IMG/VR virus record: IMGVR_UViG_3300031884_001504
Coordinates: 1-29,656 of that record
Origin: a virus
Length of the DNA: 29,656 bases
Reading direction: 5' to 3' (one strand)
The notes under the pieces are model-generated. The model searched no databases. It was not told the origin of the DNA and saw only the letters and a program-made list of their open reading frames with translations. The position numbers were made by a program, and so were the translations under genes. Positions within the stretch are counted from its first letter, which is position 1; each line of letters starts with the position of its first letter. This document shows positions 8,703 to 25,908 of the stretch, piece by piece.

Positions 8703-10540
<1,838 letters not shown>

Positions 10541-11704
10541 GAAGACTTTGACGAGCGTCTTGTTAATTACATGGCAGACGATTTTAAAAAGACTAACGGC
10601 ATAGACTTACGCAATGACAAACTGGCTTTGCAGCGTCTACGCGAATCAGCTGAACGTGCCAAAATTGAACTGTCAAGCACAACAGAAACAGAAGTAAACA
10701 TTCCATATGTTACTGCTGACGCAAGCGGTCCAAAACATCTTTTGTTAAAAATTTCAAGGGGTAAATTTGAAAGTTTAATAAGCGATCTAATTGAAAGAGC
10801 TATAGCTCCTTGCAAAGCTGCACTAGCCGATGCTGGTTTAAAGCCCGGTGACATAAAAGAAGTTATTCTAGTTGGTGGTTCAACACGTATTCCTGCAATT
10901 CGCAATGCTGTTAAAAACTTCTTCGGTAAAGAACCTAGCAATGCTGTAAATCCTGATGAGGCCGTTGCCATAGGAGCTGCCATTCAAGGTGGTGTTCTTC
11001 AAGGTGACGTTAAAGATGTACTACTTCTTGACGTTACACCTCTTTCACTTGGTTTGGAAACATTAGGCGGAGTGTTTACACGATTGATAGATCGGAACAC
11101 TACTATTCCAACAAGAAAGAGCCAGGTTTTTTCAACAGCAGAAGACAATCAAAATGCAGTTACAATAAGAGTTTTCCAAGGGGAACGCGAAATGGCTGCT
11201 GATAACAAGCTTCTTGGGCAATTTGATTTAACAGGTATACCGCCTGCACGCAGAGGAACACCTAAAATCACTGTCACCTTTGATATTGATGCTAATGGAA
11301 TTGTTTCAGTAAGTGCCAAAGATGAAGCAACAGGAAAAGAGCAACAAATTACTGTCACTGCAAACGGTGGACTGTCAGACGAAGACATTCAACAAATGGT
11401 AGCCGATGCTGAGAAAAATAAAGCAGCTGACCAGGCTAAAAAAGAAATGGCAGACGCACGCAATGCAGCACAGGCCGCTATTAATTCAGCTGAACGTCAA
11501 GTTGAAGAAGGTGAAGATCTTGATCAAAATCTAGTAGATCAGCTGAATGCTGCTAAAGCAGAACTGCAGAATCTACTAAATGATGACGCTGTTGCTTTAG
11601 ATCAATTACGAGAAGCAAGCAGTAAACTGATTAATGCATCAATGGCTCTTGGTCAAAGTCAGTATCAAACAATTAATCCAGAAACGGCTTCAACTGAGCA
11701 ATAA
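10541..11704 (+). CDS. dnaK: DnaK (Hsp70) chaperone, exon 2 (residues 224-610)
   Basis: Exon 2 begins [17 protein letters not shown] and contains the rest of the ATPase domain ([44 protein letters not shown]), the interdomain linker ([20 protein letters not shown]) and the substrate-binding domain ([18 protein letters not shown], then [12 protein letters not shown] and [15 protein letters not shown]), followed by the helical lid. The lid ends [10 protein letters not shown] and lacks the acidic EEV-type tail of many bacterial DnaK proteins. The linker is intact, so coupling between domains should work. It terminates at a perfect hairpin shared with the convergent release-factor gene. In-frame ATG or GTG codons upstream are in the intron. 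Confidence 0.93.
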
Positions 11705-11706
11705 TA

Positions 11707-11737
11707 AAAAAGGTGTAGCTAAAAACTACACCTTTTT
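11707..11737. terminator. Bidirectional terminator between dnaK and the release factor gene
   Basis: AAAAAGGTGTAG (11707-11718) and CTACACCTTTTT (11726-11737) are perfect 12-bp arms with a 7-nt loop. A-tract and T-tract flanks make it an intrinsic terminator in both directions. The minus gene's TAA begins within the right arm. Confidence 0.9.
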
Positions 11738-12428
11738 ACCATAATAAGTCAATCATTCCTTTTGACAATTGTCTTGTGTTAATAGTTTTATTATTTCTAT
11801 GATCACAAATTTCATCATGCTGTAAACGATAGGTGCGTATTTTATCACCTCTCTGGCCAGACCCAACTTGTGCCTTTTTTTCTGAGCTTATTTTTTCATG
11901 CTGCTGTATACCAAAGTATTGTCGCAGTTTAGCAGTTAGATCGTTTTTAGCTTGGGTATAACTAGTTTCTCTACTGCGAGTCTGAGCCGTAACTGTGATT
12001 CCAGTTGGCGTATGGGTAAGCCTTATACTATTCTGATGTTTATTTCTGTGCTGGCCTCCTTTACCTGTACCGCTGAACCACGATAAACTTAGATCTTTTT
12101 CATCTAATACAAACTCATTGGTCAAGTTTGGATCTATAACACTAACGGTAACAGTACTGGTGTGCACTCTACCTTTTTTCTCAGTAGGTGGCACACGTTG
12201 CCATCGATGACCTCCGGCTTCTGCTTCAAGTTTTTCTAAATTTTGTCCTGAAAATTCAAGTGAGATGGCAAAATTGCCGTGCCCTTTTGTGCTGGGTCTC
12301 ACATCTGCCCAGCGGCACTTTCAACCAACTCTGGTTGCTAGATTAAAATAGATGTCTGCTAAATCTTTAACTAACAGCTGACTATCAGCACCGCCTTCGG
12401 CAGCGTGTATTTCTATTATTCTACGCAT
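11736..12428 (-). CDS. Class I peptide chain release factor with in-frame UGA at codon 36
   Basis: ATG 12428 has AAGGAG 7 nt upstream. The frame reads MRRIIEIHAAEGGADSQLLV..., the EIxAxEGGxDA start of phage release factors without domain 1, then TRVG-TGA-KCRW, then AGGHRWQRVPPTEKKGRVHT (domain 2; the PPT fits the RF1-type PxT anticodon-like motif, so UAA/UAG recognition) and WFSGTGKGGQHRNKHQNS, the GGQ peptidyl-tRNA hydrolysis loop. Total 230 positions including the TGA at 12321-12323. Relatives have Trp at this exact place (RRGW/RRxWK), so TGA replaces TGG. Without readthrough only 35 residues, or a GTG-initiated 188-residue product (from 12302) that keeps PPT and GGQ, would be made. Whether this is regulation or a nonsense mutation is undecided. 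Confidence 0.85.
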
Positions 12429-12478
12429 GCTACGTCTCCTTTTACATGGTTTCTATACTATTTAATTATTGTCTAAGA

Positions 12479-12934: not shown

Positions 12935-13024
12935 ATGGATAAAGTAGAAATGGATAAAGTAGAAATGGATAAAGTAGAAATGGATAAAGTAGAAATGGAT
13001 AAAGTAGAAATGGATAAAGTAGAA
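12935..13024 (+). repeat. Six perfect 15-bp repeats (MDKVE codons)
   Basis: ATGGATAAAGTAGAA is repeated six times without a mismatch from 12935 to 13024. Each unit is five codons and carries its own ATG, so gain or loss of units by slippage keeps the frame and gives a shorter or longer charged N-terminal tail. Confidence 0.97.
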
Positions 13025-13423
13025 ATCATATTCAAAAAACAAATAGCTAATTCTCCGTGTATGGCAATGATGTTACAAGCTCATGCTGAACTAATTGAAA
13101 AAAGCTGGGCAATGAATATACTTCCGTTTGGGCATAAAAGCAGTTGCATTTATGCTCAAATTGAAAATGACATTGCAGGTGCTATAGTTTTTATTTTTGA
13201 CCCTGATATTGAAGTTGTACACACTCAGTTATCCTATGTGAAACCACAGTATCGTGGCCGGCGCATATACCAGTCAATGCACAAATACCTGCATGATTAT
13301 GCACGTAAAGTCGGAGCGCATAGAATAACCAGTACAGTTCATATAGACAATCAGCCACTTTTGCAAGCAAGTACACGAAGCGGCATGACTACTCGCTGGG
13401 TTGCACAGATTTTAGAATTGTAA
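12935..13423 (+). CDS. GNAT acetyltransferase with MDKVE repeat leader
   Basis: The protein begins with six copies of MDKVE and then a GNAT domain: IIFKKQIANSPCMAMMLQAH, SSCIYAQIENDIAGAIVFIF (strands 2-3), VVHTQLSYVKPQYRGRRIYQ (strand 4 and the Q/RxxGR-type acetyl-CoA loop) and HRITSTVHIDNQPLLQASTRSG (strand 5/helix 4). The domain matches small phage N-acetyltransferases; the acceptor is unknown. The start could be ATG 12917 (GGAG 4 nt before, MLYNLH added) or any of the six repeat ATGs; 12935 fits a leaderless transcript. It is followed after one base by the PP-loop gene. Confidence 0.8.
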   Translation: MDKVEMDKVEMDKVEMDKVEMDKVEMDKVEIIFKKQIANSPCMAMMLQAHAELIEKSWAMNILPFGHKSSCIYAQIENDIAGAIVFIFDPDIEVVHTQLSYVKPQYRGRRIYQSMHKYLHDYARKVGAHRITSTVHIDNQPLLQASTRSGMTTRWVAQILEL

Positions 13424-18950: not shown

Positions 18951-18979
18951 TTGTGCATTACCTGATACTAGTGTACAAT
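18951..18979 (+). promoter_or_regulatory. Promoter for the Thg1-like gene
   Basis: TTGTGC (18951-18956), a 17-nt spacer and TACAAT (18974-18979), 27 nt before ATG 19007. A GGGGA ribosome site is preceded by a T8 run. No gene lies between. Confidence 0.5.
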
Positions 18980-19006
18980 GTTTTTAATATTTTTTTTGGG
19001 GATAAC

Positions 19007-19831
19007 ATGACTGATAATACAGCGTTAGGTGATCGTATGAAGGAATACGAATCCTATGAAACAAATAGAAAGTTCATGCCTGGACTACCAATCTACGCAC
19101 GGGTAGACGGTCGCGGATTTTCTAGATTCACAAGAGGCATGGAACGGCCCTATGACATTCGTATGAGTAATGCAATGATCGAAACAACCAAAGTGTTGGT
19201 TGAACAAACGCATGCTACTATCGGCTATACTCAAAGCGATGAAATTTCATTGGTATGGATCCCTAATGAACACGGGCACAATTGGTTTGACGGTAAAGTA
19301 ATGAAAATGACCAGTGTGCTGGCAGGTCTAGCAACTGCTGCGTTTGGCCAGGCAATTTTGCTGGAATTCAGCAACATGCACGGTCTTCCTTTGTTGCAAA
19401 AAATGCCTCACTTTGATACCCGTGTGATCAGCATGCCTAGTGAGATTGAAGCTGCTAACATGTTGCTGTGGCGAAATCAGGATTGCGCAAAAAATAGCAT
19501 AACAATGGCAGCAAGCTCTCTTTACAGTCATAAAGAACTTCAAGGTAAGAATTCAGCTAACAAGCACGACATGCTATTCGACAAGGGCATAAATTGGTCA
19601 ACCGACTATCCGTATTTCTTTAAGCGTGGGACATTTGTTAGACGACGCTCTGTTGAAAGATTGTTGGCCGAACACGAGTTGAATTCTATACCAGAAGAAT
19701 ATCGACCTGCATCAAATGAGAGAGTTGTTAGATCAACGGTTGACCCGTACGATCTACCTCCACTTTCTAAAATAGAAAATTTAGTCCCTGTGTTGTTCAA
19801 GGATGCTGACCCTGTGTTACGATCTGGGTAA
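19007..19831 (+). CDS. tRNA-His guanylyltransferase-like (Thg1-like) 3'-5' polymerase
   Basis: The 274-residue protein matches Thg1: YARVDGRGFSRF with Asp34, GYTQSDEISLVW with Asp78-Glu79 (metal ligands of the palm), a WRNQDCAKNSITMAA segment at the HINNLY position and KRGTFVRRR near the C-terminal third. Thg1 adds G to the 5' end of tRNA-His; bacterial and phage relatives often repair tRNA 5' ends by template-directed 3'-5' synthesis. ATG 19007 has a GGGGA ribosome site. The second half is duplicated downstream at 20650-20970 beyond an endonuclease gene. The stop codon lies inside a perfect hairpin that it shares with that gene. Confidence 0.88.
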   Translation: MTDNTALGDRMKEYESYETNRKFMPGLPIYARVDGRGFSRFTRGMERPYDIRMSNAMIETTKVLVEQTHATIGYTQSDEISLVWIPNEHGHNWFDGKVMKMTSVLAGLATAAFGQAILLEFSNMHGLPLLQKMPHFDTRVISMPSEIEAANMLLWRNQDCAKNSITMAASSLYSHKELQGKNSANKHDMLFDKGINWSTDYPYFFKRGTFVRRRSVERLLAEHELNSIPEEYRPASNERVVRSTVDPYDLPPLSKIENLVPVLFKDADPVLRSG

Positions 19832-19839
19832 CACAGGGT
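19809..19839. terminator. 12-bp hairpin holding both convergent stop codons
   Basis: ACCCTGTGTTAC (19809-19820) and GTAACACAGGGT (19828-19839) are perfect arms around GATCTGG. The Thg1 stop (19829-19831) and the endonuclease stop (19817-19819, minus strand) both lie in the stem. No long T-tract follows, so termination may be partial. Confidence 0.6.
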
Positions 19840-20560
19840 AATACAATCTTCTTTCAATCCATCCGTCGCCTGGATGCTTAAATGATATTTTATTTGTTAT
19901 ACCATTATTATACCATTTTCGACCAACTCGTGCATGACTTAGTTTTCTTTTAGATTCTGTTGTGTGTGGCGTACCAGATCTACCTTTTAGTTTGCTCGGT
20001 TTACCTTTTTTCGCAAAACTTATCTTTGCACATCTCTCTGCGATCCATATCTGATTTTTACCCGCATCTCGTATTTTTTCAATGGTTTCTGGTGTATGAC
20101 GTTGTAGACCAATCTTACCTTTATTCCACGGAACAGATCCTAATTTTAATTGAGATATTTTAGCACACGTTTCGGCAGTTACAACTCGGTTACGTTTTGC
20201 AACAGACATCTTGTGTTTTGTTTCGTTGGATATAGGCGCATCTCGCCTGAAAGCTACCCCTCTAATATTTCCGTTTAGCCATTTTGGGTCTTGTAACACT
20301 TTCATCCGGCGTAATACTTTTTCTTCCCAGATAATTGCGTCGTTGGGTGTGTCAAACTCGCGTCGAATTTCAAATAGAAATGCTGAATCTCCGTATTTTT
20401 TTCTTAATTTTGCTATTTTCTTACTACTGGTAAAGTAATGAATCCAAAAATCTTGCTTTGCCTGTAGACGATTTCGCCATCTTACCCCATAATAGTATTG
20501 ATTTGTTGGAATACACTTCAACAGGTATGTATAAGGTCTAGGACCTGCATAAGTAGTCAT
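19817..20560 (-). CDS. GIY-YIG homing endonuclease with NUMOD3-type repeats
   Basis: The 247-residue protein has YTYLLKCIPTNQYYYGVRW (GIY-YIG core), a basic recognition helix (KIAKLRKKYG) and the acidic IIWEEKVLRR with the catalytic Glu. After it come NUMOD3-like DNA-binding repeats: APISNETKHKMSVAKRN, then TAETCAKISQLKLG, TPETIEKIRDAGKN and TTESKRKLSHARVG. AAAGGAG lies 8 nt before ATG. It is convergent to the Thg1-like gene, overlapping its 3' end by 15 nt, and lies between that gene and a second Thg1 C-terminal half. The DNA arrangement implies it moved into a thg1 allele. Confidence 0.88.
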   Translation of the reverse strand: MTTYAGPRPYTYLLKCIPTNQYYYGVRWRNRLQAKQDFWIHYFTSSKKIAKLRKKYGDSAFLFEIRREFDTPNDAIIWEEKVLRRMKVLQDPKWLNGNIRGVAFRRDAPISNETKHKMSVAKRNRVVTAETCAKISQLKLGSVPWNKGKIGLQRHTPETIEKIRDAGKNQIWIAERCAKISFAKKGKPSKLKGRSGTPHTTESKRKLSHARVGRKWYNNGITNKISFKHPGDGWIERRLYYPVLPRS

Positions 20561-20583
20561 GTGCTGTTGCTCCTTTCAAGCAA

Positions 20584-20633
20584 TAGAGTGGTCGGAGAGT
20601 GCGAATCTCGTGGACCACACTTATTTAGCTCTA
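20584..20633. promoter_or_regulatory. Branched inverted repeat in the endonuclease leader
   Basis: TAGA/TCTA, GTGGTC/GACCAC and GAGA/TCTC arms nest to form an extended hairpin (20584-20633) between the endonuclease start and the Thg1 fragment. It lies in the endonuclease 5' leader (minus strand), and in + orientation just ahead of TATAGTCTG, a 9-mer shared with the 3' core of the dnaK intron. Confidence 0.4.
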
Positions 20634-20649
20634 TAGTCTGCAGGATAAC

Positions 20650-20970
20650 ATGGCCACTAGGCACTATTACAGCCACAAAGATATGCATCTTAAGAATCAA
20701 GCTGTCATGAATGAAATGCTTTTTGCCAAGGGAGTTAATTTTAACGACTATCCTACTTTTTTCAAAAGAGGTACATGGGTTCGAAGAGTAACTGAAGAAC
20801 GGATTCTCACAGCCGAGGAATTGGATAGAATTCCTGAGAAATATCGCCATATGTCAACAGAATTGCATTTACGGAGTAAGATGGTAGATTTTGATTTGCC
20901 TCCTCTTAATAAAATTGCCAACCTAAGGGATTTGCTCTTTTATAGTAAATCTATCGTTAACAAAACCTAA
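20650..20970 (+). CDS. Second Thg1 C-terminal half (displaced fragment)
   Basis: The 106 residues align with the C-terminal part of the Thg1-like protein: YYSHKDMHLKNQAVMNEMLF against LYSHKELQGKNSANKHDMLF, then FKRGTWVRR against FKRGTFVRR, and DFDLPPLNKIANLRDLLF against PYDLPPLSKIENLVPVLF. Similarity begins exactly at the first codons (MA), so the piece starts where the other gene was cut. The palm metal ligands are missing, so it cannot be active alone. AGGA precedes ATG by 5 nt, leaving translation possible. It is likely the displaced native 3' end of thg1 after endonuclease-driven replacement. Confidence 0.85.
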   Translation: MATRHYYSHKDMHLKNQAVMNEMLFAKGVNFNDYPTFFKRGTWVRRVTEERILTAEELDRIPEKYRHMSTELHLRSKMVDFDLPPLNKIANLRDLLFYSKSIVNKT

Positions 20971-23833: not shown

Positions 23834-24997
23834 ATGACAATTACTGCAAGTATCGTTGGGCCTACGTTTGTTACCGTCATGGTAAACGGACAAACCCATA
23901 CTATCAATTCAGATCATGCGAATTACAATAAAATTCGTGAAGCACTGAAAACCAAAGATCTTGATTTGGTTGAAAAGCTTATTAACGTAGCGAAGGCTGT
24001 AACAAAATACGTAGCTGGGCGAGTTACTGTAGTCGGCGATAAGGTCATGTACGGCGACCATGAAGTCAAAGGCAGTGTTGTGCAGCGCATCATTGCCATG
24101 CTAAATGAAGGATTTGATGCAGAGCCAGTTATCAAGTTTCTTGAAAATCTCATGTCTAATCCATCTAAGCGTGCAGTTGACGAGCTTTACGGCTTCCTAG
24201 AAGCAACATCACTGCCTATTACCGAAGATGGTTGTTTCCTTGCTTACAAGAAGGTAAACAATGATTACATGGATTTCTATACCAGGCGTATTAGCAACAA
24301 GCTAGCAAGTCTTATGTCTCCACAAGAGCTTGCTGCACTACCAGTTACTGTGGGCAATGTCACTACTGAAGTTGTAAATGGTGTAACCACACTAAGTATG
24401 CCTCGCAATCAAGTGGATGACGAGCGTGATCGCACTTGCTCATATGGTCTGCATTTTTGCAGTCTTTCATATTTGCCACATTATCACGGTGGTGCCGGCT
24501 GTGTTCTAATTGTAAAAATTAATCCAGCGGATGTTGTTAGTATTCCATCGGATTACAACAATGCAAAAGGACGCACATGTCGCTATGAAGTAATCGGTGA
24601 ACATACTTCAGAATACTCCGAAGCCTGGACAAAGCCAGTATGGGTAGATTCAACTGATGATCTTGACGATGACATCGGTGAAGATGAAGATGATCAGTTT
24701 GATAATGGATATGATGCTGGCCAGTTAGCTGCTGAAAATGCAAGTAATGCTCTCAGCGCATATGACGCTACACCTCCTTCTGGTAGTTCTACAAGTTTTG
24801 TAAGGGGTTACGTAGAAGGCTATGCCGGTAATTATCGTGTTGACTGGTATGATGTTGGTTATGCAGCAGGTCAAGACGATGTAAATGATTCTAACAGTTA
24901 CGAAGATTTGGTACCAGCTGCATGCGATGACTCAAATCAGTATCGCGAAGGCTATGCAGATGGCTGGCGTGATGCTAAAGTTGAAAAACTAGGTTGA
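23834..24997 (+). CDS. rIIB: RIIB-like protein with acidic, GYxxG-rich C-terminal extension
   Basis: The 387-residue protein contains the RIIB core of marine T4-like phages: LYGFLEATSLPITEDGCFLA, KKVNNDYMDFYTRR, DDERDRTCSYGLHFCSLSYL and the ADVVSIPSDYNNAKGRTCRY segment. In T4, RIIB acts with RIIA against Rex exclusion. After about residue 275 comes an extension not in T4 RIIB: an acidic run (DDLDDDIGEDEDD) and four spaced units of the form GY(D/V/A)xGx (NGYDAGQ, RGYVEGY, VGYAAGQ, EGYADGW). This part looks like a helical repeat. AAAGGAG precedes ATG. It directly precedes the LpxC gene. Confidence 0.88.
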   Translation: MTITASIVGPTFVTVMVNGQTHTINSDHANYNKIREALKTKDLDLVEKLINVAKAVTKYVAGRVTVVGDKVMYGDHEVKGSVVQRIIAMLNEGFDAEPVIKFLENLMSNPSKRAVDELYGFLEATSLPITEDGCFLAYKKVNNDYMDFYTRRISNKLASLMSPQELAALPVTVGNVTTEVVNGVTTLSMPRNQVDDERDRTCSYGLHFCSLSYLPHYHGGAGCVLIVKINPADVVSIPSDYNNAKGRTCRYEVIGEHTSEYSEAWTKPVWVDSTDDLDDDIGEDEDDQFDNGYDAGQLAAENASNALSAYDATPPSGSSTSFVRGYVEGYAGNYRVDWYDVGYAAGQDDVNDSNSYEDLVPAACDDSNQYREGYADGWRDAKVEKLG

Positions 24998-25011
24998 TCC
25001 AAGCAACTGGC

Positions 25012-25908
25012 ATGTCAGACAAAAAACTAATCTGGCATGCCAGTACAATGGTTACTAGACAACAAACTATTAAAAATCCAATATGGTGTTGCGGCAACGG
25101 GTTGCATTCTGGAGAGAATACTAGAGTGCAACTTTGTCCTGCTAAAGAAAATACAGGAATTGTGTTCCATGTTATGGAACATCATGATATCAAAGGAATA
25201 ATTCCTGCTAGTATTTCATCTATAAAATCTGGACAGTTTAGAACTGTTTTACAGAATGGCAACCATTCAGTACAAACTACCGAACACTTGCTTGCAGCAA
25301 TTTCTGCTTTTGGAATTTCAAATTTAATAATCGAAGTATGGGGTAATGAAATACCCATACACAACGGAAGTGCCAATGCATGGACATTGCTTATCGAAAT
25401 GGCAGGAATTGTTGAGCAACAGGAAATAGTTCCAAAAATTCGTATATTGAGGACCATTGAAGTAGATGATAAAAATGGATGGTGTAAATTTATACCTTAT
25501 CCACATTTTGAAATTGAATATCATTTGAACTACACTTGTCAGCCAATTGGTGTTCAACACTTTAAAATTGTACCGAACAAAAAGAATTTTGTAGAACAAA
25601 TAGCAGATGCGAAAACGTTTGGACTGCTATCAGATTATCATATCCTACTTGAAAAAAATCTAAGTAACGGTTCTAATCTGCAAAATACTTTGGTATTTAC
25701 GGAGACAGGACTATTAAATCCACATATGTCTAAATGGGATAACGAACCTGTGCGACATAAAATACTAGATGCTATAGGTGACCTTTCGTTAATTGGAAAA
25801 CCAGTAATTGGAAAATTTATAGGACATCAAAGCGGGCATTGTTTAAATTTAAGATTAGCTGAAAAATTGATCAACAGTAGTTCAAATTGGATGTTGGAAG
25901 ACTGTTAA
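25012..25908 (+). CDS. lpxC: UDP-3-O-acyl-N-acetylglucosamine deacetylase (LpxC)
   Basis: The 298-residue protein (E. coli LpxC has 305) matches the full LpxC fold. It contains GNGLHSGENTRVQLCPA, the zinc-ligand region QTTEHLLAAI (Glu91, His92), IIEVWGNEIPIHNGSA, the ADAKTFGLL segment, RHKILDAIGDL (His249 and Asp253, the other zinc ligands) and GHQSGHCLN (His276, catalytic base). LpxC catalyses the first committed step of lipid A synthesis in the cytoplasm. ATG 25012 is chosen; TTG 24994, overlapping the rIIB stop, and ATG 25048, which best fits the bacterial N-terminus, are alternatives, and none has a strong ribosome site. A 2OG-oxygenase-like gene follows 11 nt later. All active-site residues are present, so activity is plausible. 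Confidence 0.92.
   Translation: MSDKKLIWHASTMVTRQQTIKNPIWCCGNGLHSGENTRVQLCPAKENTGIVFHVMEHHDIKGIIPASISSIKSGQFRTVLQNGNHSVQTTEHLLAAISAFGISNLIIEVWGNEIPIHNGSANAWTLLIEMAGIVEQQEIVPKIRILRTIEVDDKNGWCKFIPYPHFEIEYHLNYTCQPIGVQHFKIVPNKKNFVEQIADAKTFGLLSDYHILLEKNLSNGSNLQNTLVFTETGLLNPHMSKWDNEPVRHKILDAIGDLSLIGKPVIGKFIGHQSGHCLNLRLAEKLINSSSNWMLEDC

Follow-up and report, generated by a model that had tools for sequence, protein, structure and literature searches.

prfB, the gene of RF2, is a class I release factor gene in which an early stop codon gates synthesis of the product. The stop lies at codon 26, within the sequence CUU UGA C, and is passed by a +1 frameshift. According to the figures given in a 2025 survey of 8,164 prfB genes, this stop is TGA in 98.6%, TAA in 1.4% and TAG in none (PMC12421855). 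A review by Atkins and colleagues in 2016 mentions that a switch for the RF2 gene based on UGA readthrough had been entertained (PMC5009743). According to the relevant passage, no RF2 gene was then known in which a UGA stands in frame without a change of frame, and neither was an RF1 counterpart with UAG; the passage also points to a gene of a giant amoeba virus that has both readthrough and frameshift (PMC5009743).

Release factor genes with conserved UGA readthrough have been reported in Mimivirus (R726) and Megavirus (mg280), where Trp was proposed at the readthrough stop and a frameshift at CUU UAG C or CUU UAA C is added (PMC3521657). As presented in that report, these genes of amoeba viruses encode factors of the eukaryotic/archaeal type, and belong to a family other than the one described below. 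Among phages, a paper on huge phage genomes lists release factors 1 and 2 (PMC7162821), and a word search of its main text found neither "frameshift" nor "readthrough".

Here we describe a phage locus in IMG/VR virus record IMGVR_UViG_3300031884_001504. The stretch analysed, hereafter the window, comprises positions 1 to 29,656 of that record and is 29,656 nucleotides long. Judged from comparison with its relatives, it probably contains a gene for a short class I release factor whose synthesis depends on programmed readthrough of a UGA standing in frame at codon 36. The gene resembles prfB in that an early stop gates synthesis of a class I factor, and the CUU-stop of prfB recurs in its frameshifting relatives. 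The recoding site of this family lies in domain 2, and the window and its close relatives keep their frame where prfB shifts by +1, so that no prfB-type frameshift is found there.

A release factor gene with an in-frame UGA

The gene lies on the minus strand (11736..12428). Its frame opens with ATG at 12428, runs for 35 codons (12324..12428) to a TGA at 12323-12321, continues for 194 codons (11739..12320) and closes with TAA at 11738-11736. If UGA terminates, the short upstream ORF is the entire product. The downstream part carries the PPT codon-reading motif and GGQ, and matches the PCRF and RF-1 Pfam domains above cut-off. Taking UGA as Trp gives a 230-aa translation that aligns with class I release factors along its whole length. 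The first-pass annotation had seen a frame continuous on both sides of the TGA, requiring no change of frame in contrast to prfB, and both points hold for the window and its close relatives. It had also placed the UGA at the Trp of a GWK/RW stretch, and the alignment of the readthrough product agrees, assigning the codon (12321..12323) to the conserved Trp of the GW(K/R) stretch of class I factors. An AF2 model of the readthrough protein (pLDDT 85, pTM 0.72) matches ribosome-bound Thermus RF1 with a TM score of 0.86; in the model, the UGA position falls between a helix (14-34) and a strand (37-44).

On direct reading, a Shine-Dalgarno-like AGGAG (12436..12440, minus strand) stands 7 nt upstream of the ATG, and by eye many relatives have a comparable purine-rich stretch before their release factor ATG. 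At the other end, a putative terminator-like hairpin, AAGGTGTAG...CTACACCTT with a run of T after it (11705..11735, minus strand; direct reading only), separates the release factor gene from a converging dnaK gene.

Conservation of the UGA

Relatives were collected in four scans of IMG/VR viral contigs with search patterns that exclude the UGA codon, and the best 80 of 302, 466, 239 and 239 relatives were read. The resulting 284 loci, less two that were unreadable at the site, reduce after removal of duplicates to 117 different DNA sequences of the N-terminal part. Comparison of the codon in related phage contigs had been suggested by the first-pass annotation; among these best 80 per scan, each of the 117 distinct viral sequences is interrupted by a single stop, always TGA and always at this codon, far more consistently than chance would allow. 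Two other tryptophans of the same genes serve as controls. The invariant Trp 117 is TGG in 91/91 distinct genes, and Trp 230, which adjoins the C-terminus, is TGG in 89 of the 90 genes readable there (91 distinct; L020 is cut before Trp 230). L187 has TGA at the Trp 230 position and TAA one codon on, and this TGA may be an ordinary stop or a second recoding site.

The same codon is TGA in eight cellular or plasmid copies, from Thalassospira (L227), Jiella (L228), an alphaproteobacterial MAG (L229), Rhodovibrio (L230), a Sphingomonas MAG (L232), Gemmobacter (L233), Rhizobium pRlX5 (L277) and Bosea pBSY19_1 (L278). On the Bosea plasmid (5995-6627), the recoded gene is missing from the annotation, which has an antisense "hypothetical protein" over the same place.

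Selection and local nucleotide constraint

The pN/pS ratio, computed over 85 pairs drawn from 48 genes, amounts to 0.12 upstream of the UGA, 0.27 in the next 40 codons and 0.17 in the remainder. On these ratios, purifying selection is acting on the frame on both sides of the UGA. In the 40 codons after the UGA pS itself is reduced, at 0.29 versus 0.44 and 0.50 in the other segments.

Synonymous constraint was gauged by codon identity among 63 representatives below 85% identity, using a pair-corrected expectation because columns with variable residues compare closer relatives. Among 214 intervals compared, the ratio of observed to expected synonymous identity peaks at 1.85 at codons -1 to +5, and at codons +1 to +6 it is 1.78; away from the site it is 0.98 ± 0.11. 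The constrained stretch, codons -1 to +6 (12303..12326, minus strand), reads roughly GGY UGA AVN NNY CRC and is likely, on this evidence, to be an mRNA context that stimulates readthrough. Codon +2 ends in a pyrimidine in 63/63 representatives though the residue varies. The +4 base following the UGA is A, G or C and in none of the 117 sites U, a base that follows 60 of 203 ordinary TGA-ended ORFs in contig G014 and 8 of 20 in G001. A +4U is reported to lower readthrough (PMC5289835). RNAalifold found no conserved RNA hairpin around the UGA in the 63 sites. The comparative marks of programmed stop-codon readthrough are a conserved stop, flanks that are both constrained as coding sequence and a constraint on the nearby nucleotides, all of which are found here.

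Protein family and codon reading

Searched as a profile with its relatives, the product aligns to 1rq0 from residue 87 (E 4e-57) and to E. coli RF1 from residue 112. On these alignments it is a protein without domain 1 that starts where the RF1 alignment starts (domains 2-4). RF1 (prfA) is its closest relative in sequence and fold. The recognition motif PPT, described as RF1-like in the first-pass annotation, is kept in 140/143 family members, as is the equivalent of Gln185, and by PxT and Gln185 the family groups with RF1. It differs from RF1 in lacking domain 1, in being recoded, in scoring below the curated prfA cut-offs and in having Asp in place of Glu123. The part after the UGA scores 151.7 of 423.25 bits against TIGR00019 and 154 of 400 against NF001859, and the uninterrupted relative L236 reaches 212.3 and 217.1 bits, respectively. 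With the region located by a motif that permits D or E only, the Glu123 equivalent is Asp in 143/143 family members, versus Glu in 6/6 RF1/RF2 sequences, and under the same limit it is Asp in 64/66 loci of another scan. In RF1, Glu123 (T. thermophilus Glu119) is reported to contact the first stop base (PMC3974865).

The score against the RF-H model TIGR03072 is 44.8 of 166.65 bits, below cut-off, and the RF-H PDB chain 9mor is matched at E 4e-13, more distantly than 1rq0. RF-H (PrfH) is a class I release factor without domain 1 that is not known to have PxT; it shares the absence of domain 1 with this family and is the more distant relative. The 67 ORFs neighbouring the cellular loci match 30 Pfam families, and each of the 25 families listed occurs in one ORF, with neither RtcB nor a common neighbour among those 25 of 30. 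In 12 large phage contigs there is one RF-1 domain match each, namely the recoded gene. RF1 does not read UGA, so the RF1-like PPT and Gln185 leave a simple feedback at UGA without guarantee.

Recoding across the family

By their sequences, most sampled members of the family are recoded, having either a single in-frame UGA, two such codons, or a CUU-stop with a +1 frameshift as in prfB. At the corresponding place, genes of Myxococcota and other bacteria have CTT-stop-N with the second part of the gene in the +1 frame, and a GGAGG- or GGGAG-like stretch often stands directly 5' of the CTT, as in prfB. Cellular shift sites are CTT TGA in 22 loci, several being close Nannocystis strains, and CTT TAG C in four (L234, L244, L251, L253). 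Further indels are present in L242 and L262, neither of which entered the tree or the counts; in L262 (Nannocystis pusilla Na p29) the indel lies upstream of the shift site and reflects an assembly error or a shiftless variant.

A viral scan for the shift class, with the best 80 of 386 read, gave 66 distinct viral N-termini. Shift types account for 37 with CTT TGA, 13 with CTT TAG (one with an extra indel) and two with CTT TAA. Three have one in-frame UGA, five have two, and L360 has an in-frame UGA followed by a shift. The remaining five were called uninterrupted, one of which (L332) is actually of the shift type, as is L335. L320, L322, L331 and L341 stayed outside this classing; judged from their sequences, L320 is uninterrupted and L331 is a shift type. 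Over all frameshift relatives the stop at the shift site is UGA in 59, UAG in 17 and UAA in two, and every stop seen in the in-frame class is UGA. UAG shift sites, present here, contrast with their absence from the prfB figures above. Since UAG and UAA occur besides UGA, the family is not bound to UGA alone.

Both modes occur among huge phages. Two in-frame UGAs are found in LR745206 and LR756501 (635 and 735 kb), one in-frame UGA elsewhere in domain 2 in LR756502 and LR756504, and a CTTTGAC shift site in LR745208; LR756511 has no recoding. Among cellular copies, Variovorax L231 and the Rhodospirillales MAG L235 have an in-frame UGA at the place of the shift in L239 and L241. The Variovorax gene is annotated as a "peptide chain release factor-like protein" plus a "hypothetical protein". 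Culture-collection numbers appear in the records of Thalassospira xianhensis, Rhodovibrio sodomensis and Gemmobacter caeni, which have the readthrough form, and of Nannocystis exedens and Minicystis rosea, which have the shift. An uninterrupted minority consists of L236-238 (one MAG), L270, L320, L334, L338, L345 and L352. In the UGA column these have Tyr (L236-238), Leu (L270, L320, L338, L345) or Trp (L352), L334 having no placement in the alignment from which the residues were taken. L341 resembles genuine RF1.

A tree was built from 63 family members and six RF1/RF2 sequences (41 readthrough rows, 20 shift, 2 without recoding, 6 RF1/RF2). The family forms one side of a branch with SH-aLRT 99, and the distribution of these types on the tree requires seven changes, versus a mean of 24.9 after shuffling. 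The frame is unchanged in the readthrough clade, so the UGA must be read through there. Placed inside this clade with support 98 is the Hahella MAG copy L234, which has TGG at the UGA position and a CTT TAG C that starts five codons on. This natural swap supports Trp as the inserted residue. It also means that a premature stop was kept although the UGA was lost, which argues for selection for recoding as such.

UGA as a stop codon and tRNAs of the phages

Outside the release factor gene, these phages use UGA as an ordinary stop. Among mechanically called ORFs of at least 100 aa, TGA is the terminal stop of 11/36 in the window, 20/71 in G001, 20/45 in G002 and 202/377 in G014; in the window these include the rIIA and deaminase ORFs.

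Of 15 contigs searched for tRNAs, 13 large ones have 27 to 61 matches each. Ordinary-sized tRNAs with a UCA anticodon occur in two of the 13, G014 (two) and G006 (one), and a non-exhaustive pattern search found none in the other 11. A phage suppressor tRNA, one of the meanings raised in the first-pass annotation, is therefore possible in some phages and does not serve as a general explanation. ARAGORN detects tRNA-Trp(CCA) in nine of the 13. In both L010 (5769-5841) and L025 (5577-5650) this gene precedes the recoded release factor gene and shares its strand; in L010 it ends 18 nt ahead of the release factor ATG. About half of the phage tRNA-Trp genes, scored by eye and taken on their own instead of against a general bacterial frequency, have U11-A24 in the D stem, a pair we take to be "Hirsh-like". 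The 27-43 pair is mismatched in L010, L025 and L031, that is, in three of 18 tRNA-Trp entries (17 distinct genes), five of them having been scored by eye. Such a mismatch is reported to let tRNA-Trp(CCA) read UGA in a 2026 report (PMC13092985).

As a separate observation, ordinary-sized, amber-suppressor-like tRNAs with a CUA anticodon (labelled Pyl by ARAGORN) are present in phages with this release factor (L056, L067, L069, L094, L129, L130, L131, L396).

Other features of the window

The phage dnaK gene (8718-11704) is split into two parts, 8718-9395 and 10424-11704, by an ORF (9415-10482) that matches homing endonuclease families; Rfam at the gathering threshold returned no intron in this region. 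The region 18953-20970 contains a Thg1-like tRNA-His guanylyltransferase gene and, after it on the opposite strand, a GIY-YIG/NUMOD3 endonuclease ORF (19817-20560). Next comes an ORF (20650-20970) without a Pfam match, which on inspection by eye looks similar to the terminal part of the Thg1-like gene. A full-length match to LpxC, the lipid A deacetylase (24994-25908, Pfam E 1.4e-84), perhaps points to a Gram-negative host. Two repeats were also seen. Six perfect copies of ATGGATAAAGTAGAA, with an in-frame ATG in each, occupy the start of a GNAT acetyltransferase gene (12935-13026), and a 66-bp repeat in 6.3 copies (381-796) lies in an ORF with DUF4116/HEAT-like matches.

Discussion

The first-pass annotation had listed UGA readthrough as a sensor among several meanings, and it is the reading best supported by the sequences, through conservation, two-sided selection and local constraint. 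The mechanism we propose would work as follows. When UGA termination is efficient, ribosomes would stop after 35 residues and no factor would be made. When it is slow, through scarcity of RF2 or of the factor itself or through a wider failure of termination, near-cognate tRNA-Trp would read the UGA and full-length factor would appear, aided by the conserved nucleotides around and directly 3' of the codon. Reading by tRNA-Trp is the simplest route to the protein. Such a switch would resemble the autoregulation of RF2 by prfB, with same-frame readthrough replacing the +1 frameshift, and gating of a back-up release factor by termination capacity would probably be autoregulatory. A factor active at UGA would close a feedback loop as in RF2; one limited to UAA and UAG would be a back-up factor turned on by RF2 shortage. 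What the comparison provides is the family itself, the conserved UGA, coding on both sides, the local constraint, the use of UGA as a stop elsewhere and the exchange with frameshifting. From these we infer a useful rate of readthrough, the insertion of Trp, the sensing of termination capacity and the feedback by the product, as well as its codon specificity.

The main competing account accepts that readthrough is real but lets it respond to RF2 of the host, to a phage tRNA-Trp or to a suppressor tRNA; the product would act at UAA and UAG only and exert no feedback. The RF1-like PPT and Gln, each in 140/143 members, are consistent with it, as are the tRNA-Trp(CCA) genes of the phages, above all the one next to the release factor ATG in L010, and the 27-43 mismatch. 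That mismatch is nevertheless confined to three entries, and the UAG and UAA shift sites of the relatives favour a role wider than RF2 sensing, be it of the factor or of the sensor; we consider this account rather unlikely. UGA might instead be reassigned to Trp, by genetic code 4 or by a suppressor tRNA, which would make codon 36 an ordinary sense codon. The genera of the cellular copies presumably use the standard code, and three of those copies (L228, L233, L277) themselves end in TGA. The many TGA-ended ORFs in the window, G001, G002 and G014, the TGG at Trp 117 and Trp 230, and a synonymous constraint that would be unexpected at a plain sense codon also weigh against reassignment. In its favour, G014 and G006 do carry UCA-anticodon tRNAs, which the non-exhaustive pattern search did not find in the other 11 tRNA-bearing contigs, and certain code-4 phages reportedly have genes for RF1, a UGA-reading tRNA and TrpRS (PMC10746230). 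On the whole, reassignment is very unlikely.

The remaining alternatives dispense with recoding by Trp. Translation could restart after the UGA and yield a shorter factor, or two peptides could assemble; the first-pass annotation had pointed to a GTG at 12302, which is indeed present in the window. A start-like codon stands at that offset in 6/91 genes, over the 44 codons that follow the UGA such codons reach at most 9/91 at any single offset, the first ATG mostly comes 163 alignment columns on (34/91), past PPT and GGQ, and the constraint block spans the UGA, all of which makes restart highly improbable. The same annotation had allowed for a simple nonsense mutation, to which a sequencing error in a decaying gene may be added. 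TGA and TGG differ by one base, but conservation in 117/117 sequences and pN/pS of 0.12-0.27 leave this next to no credibility. Selenocysteine insertion would likewise account for an in-frame UGA, yet the relatives without UGA have Trp, Tyr or Leu at this place and the 63 sites gave no conserved hairpin; its probability is negligible.

Starting again from programmed readthrough, a wider role can be considered. As a tentative possibility, the family would be a third kind of class I release factor, one that acts at all three stops or upon general failure of termination and is gated by its own stop, with UGA readthrough and shifts at CUU-UGA, UAG or UAA as interchangeable modes. Under this proposal, Asp at position 123 would underlie the widened choice of codons.

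Gating by readthrough fits the self-regulating switch once proposed for RF2 and is new for bacteria and phages among the open-access literature searched. Recoding of this family is unreported in those open-access full texts. If the proposal is true, the family fills the gap described in 2016, in phages and in cultured bacteria, and the idea becomes testable. Readthrough and frameshifting would then substitute for each other at nearly one place in one family. Recoded release factor genes can be missed or annotated as fragments, and the genomes of huge phages may encode a termination factor responsive to how translation is proceeding.
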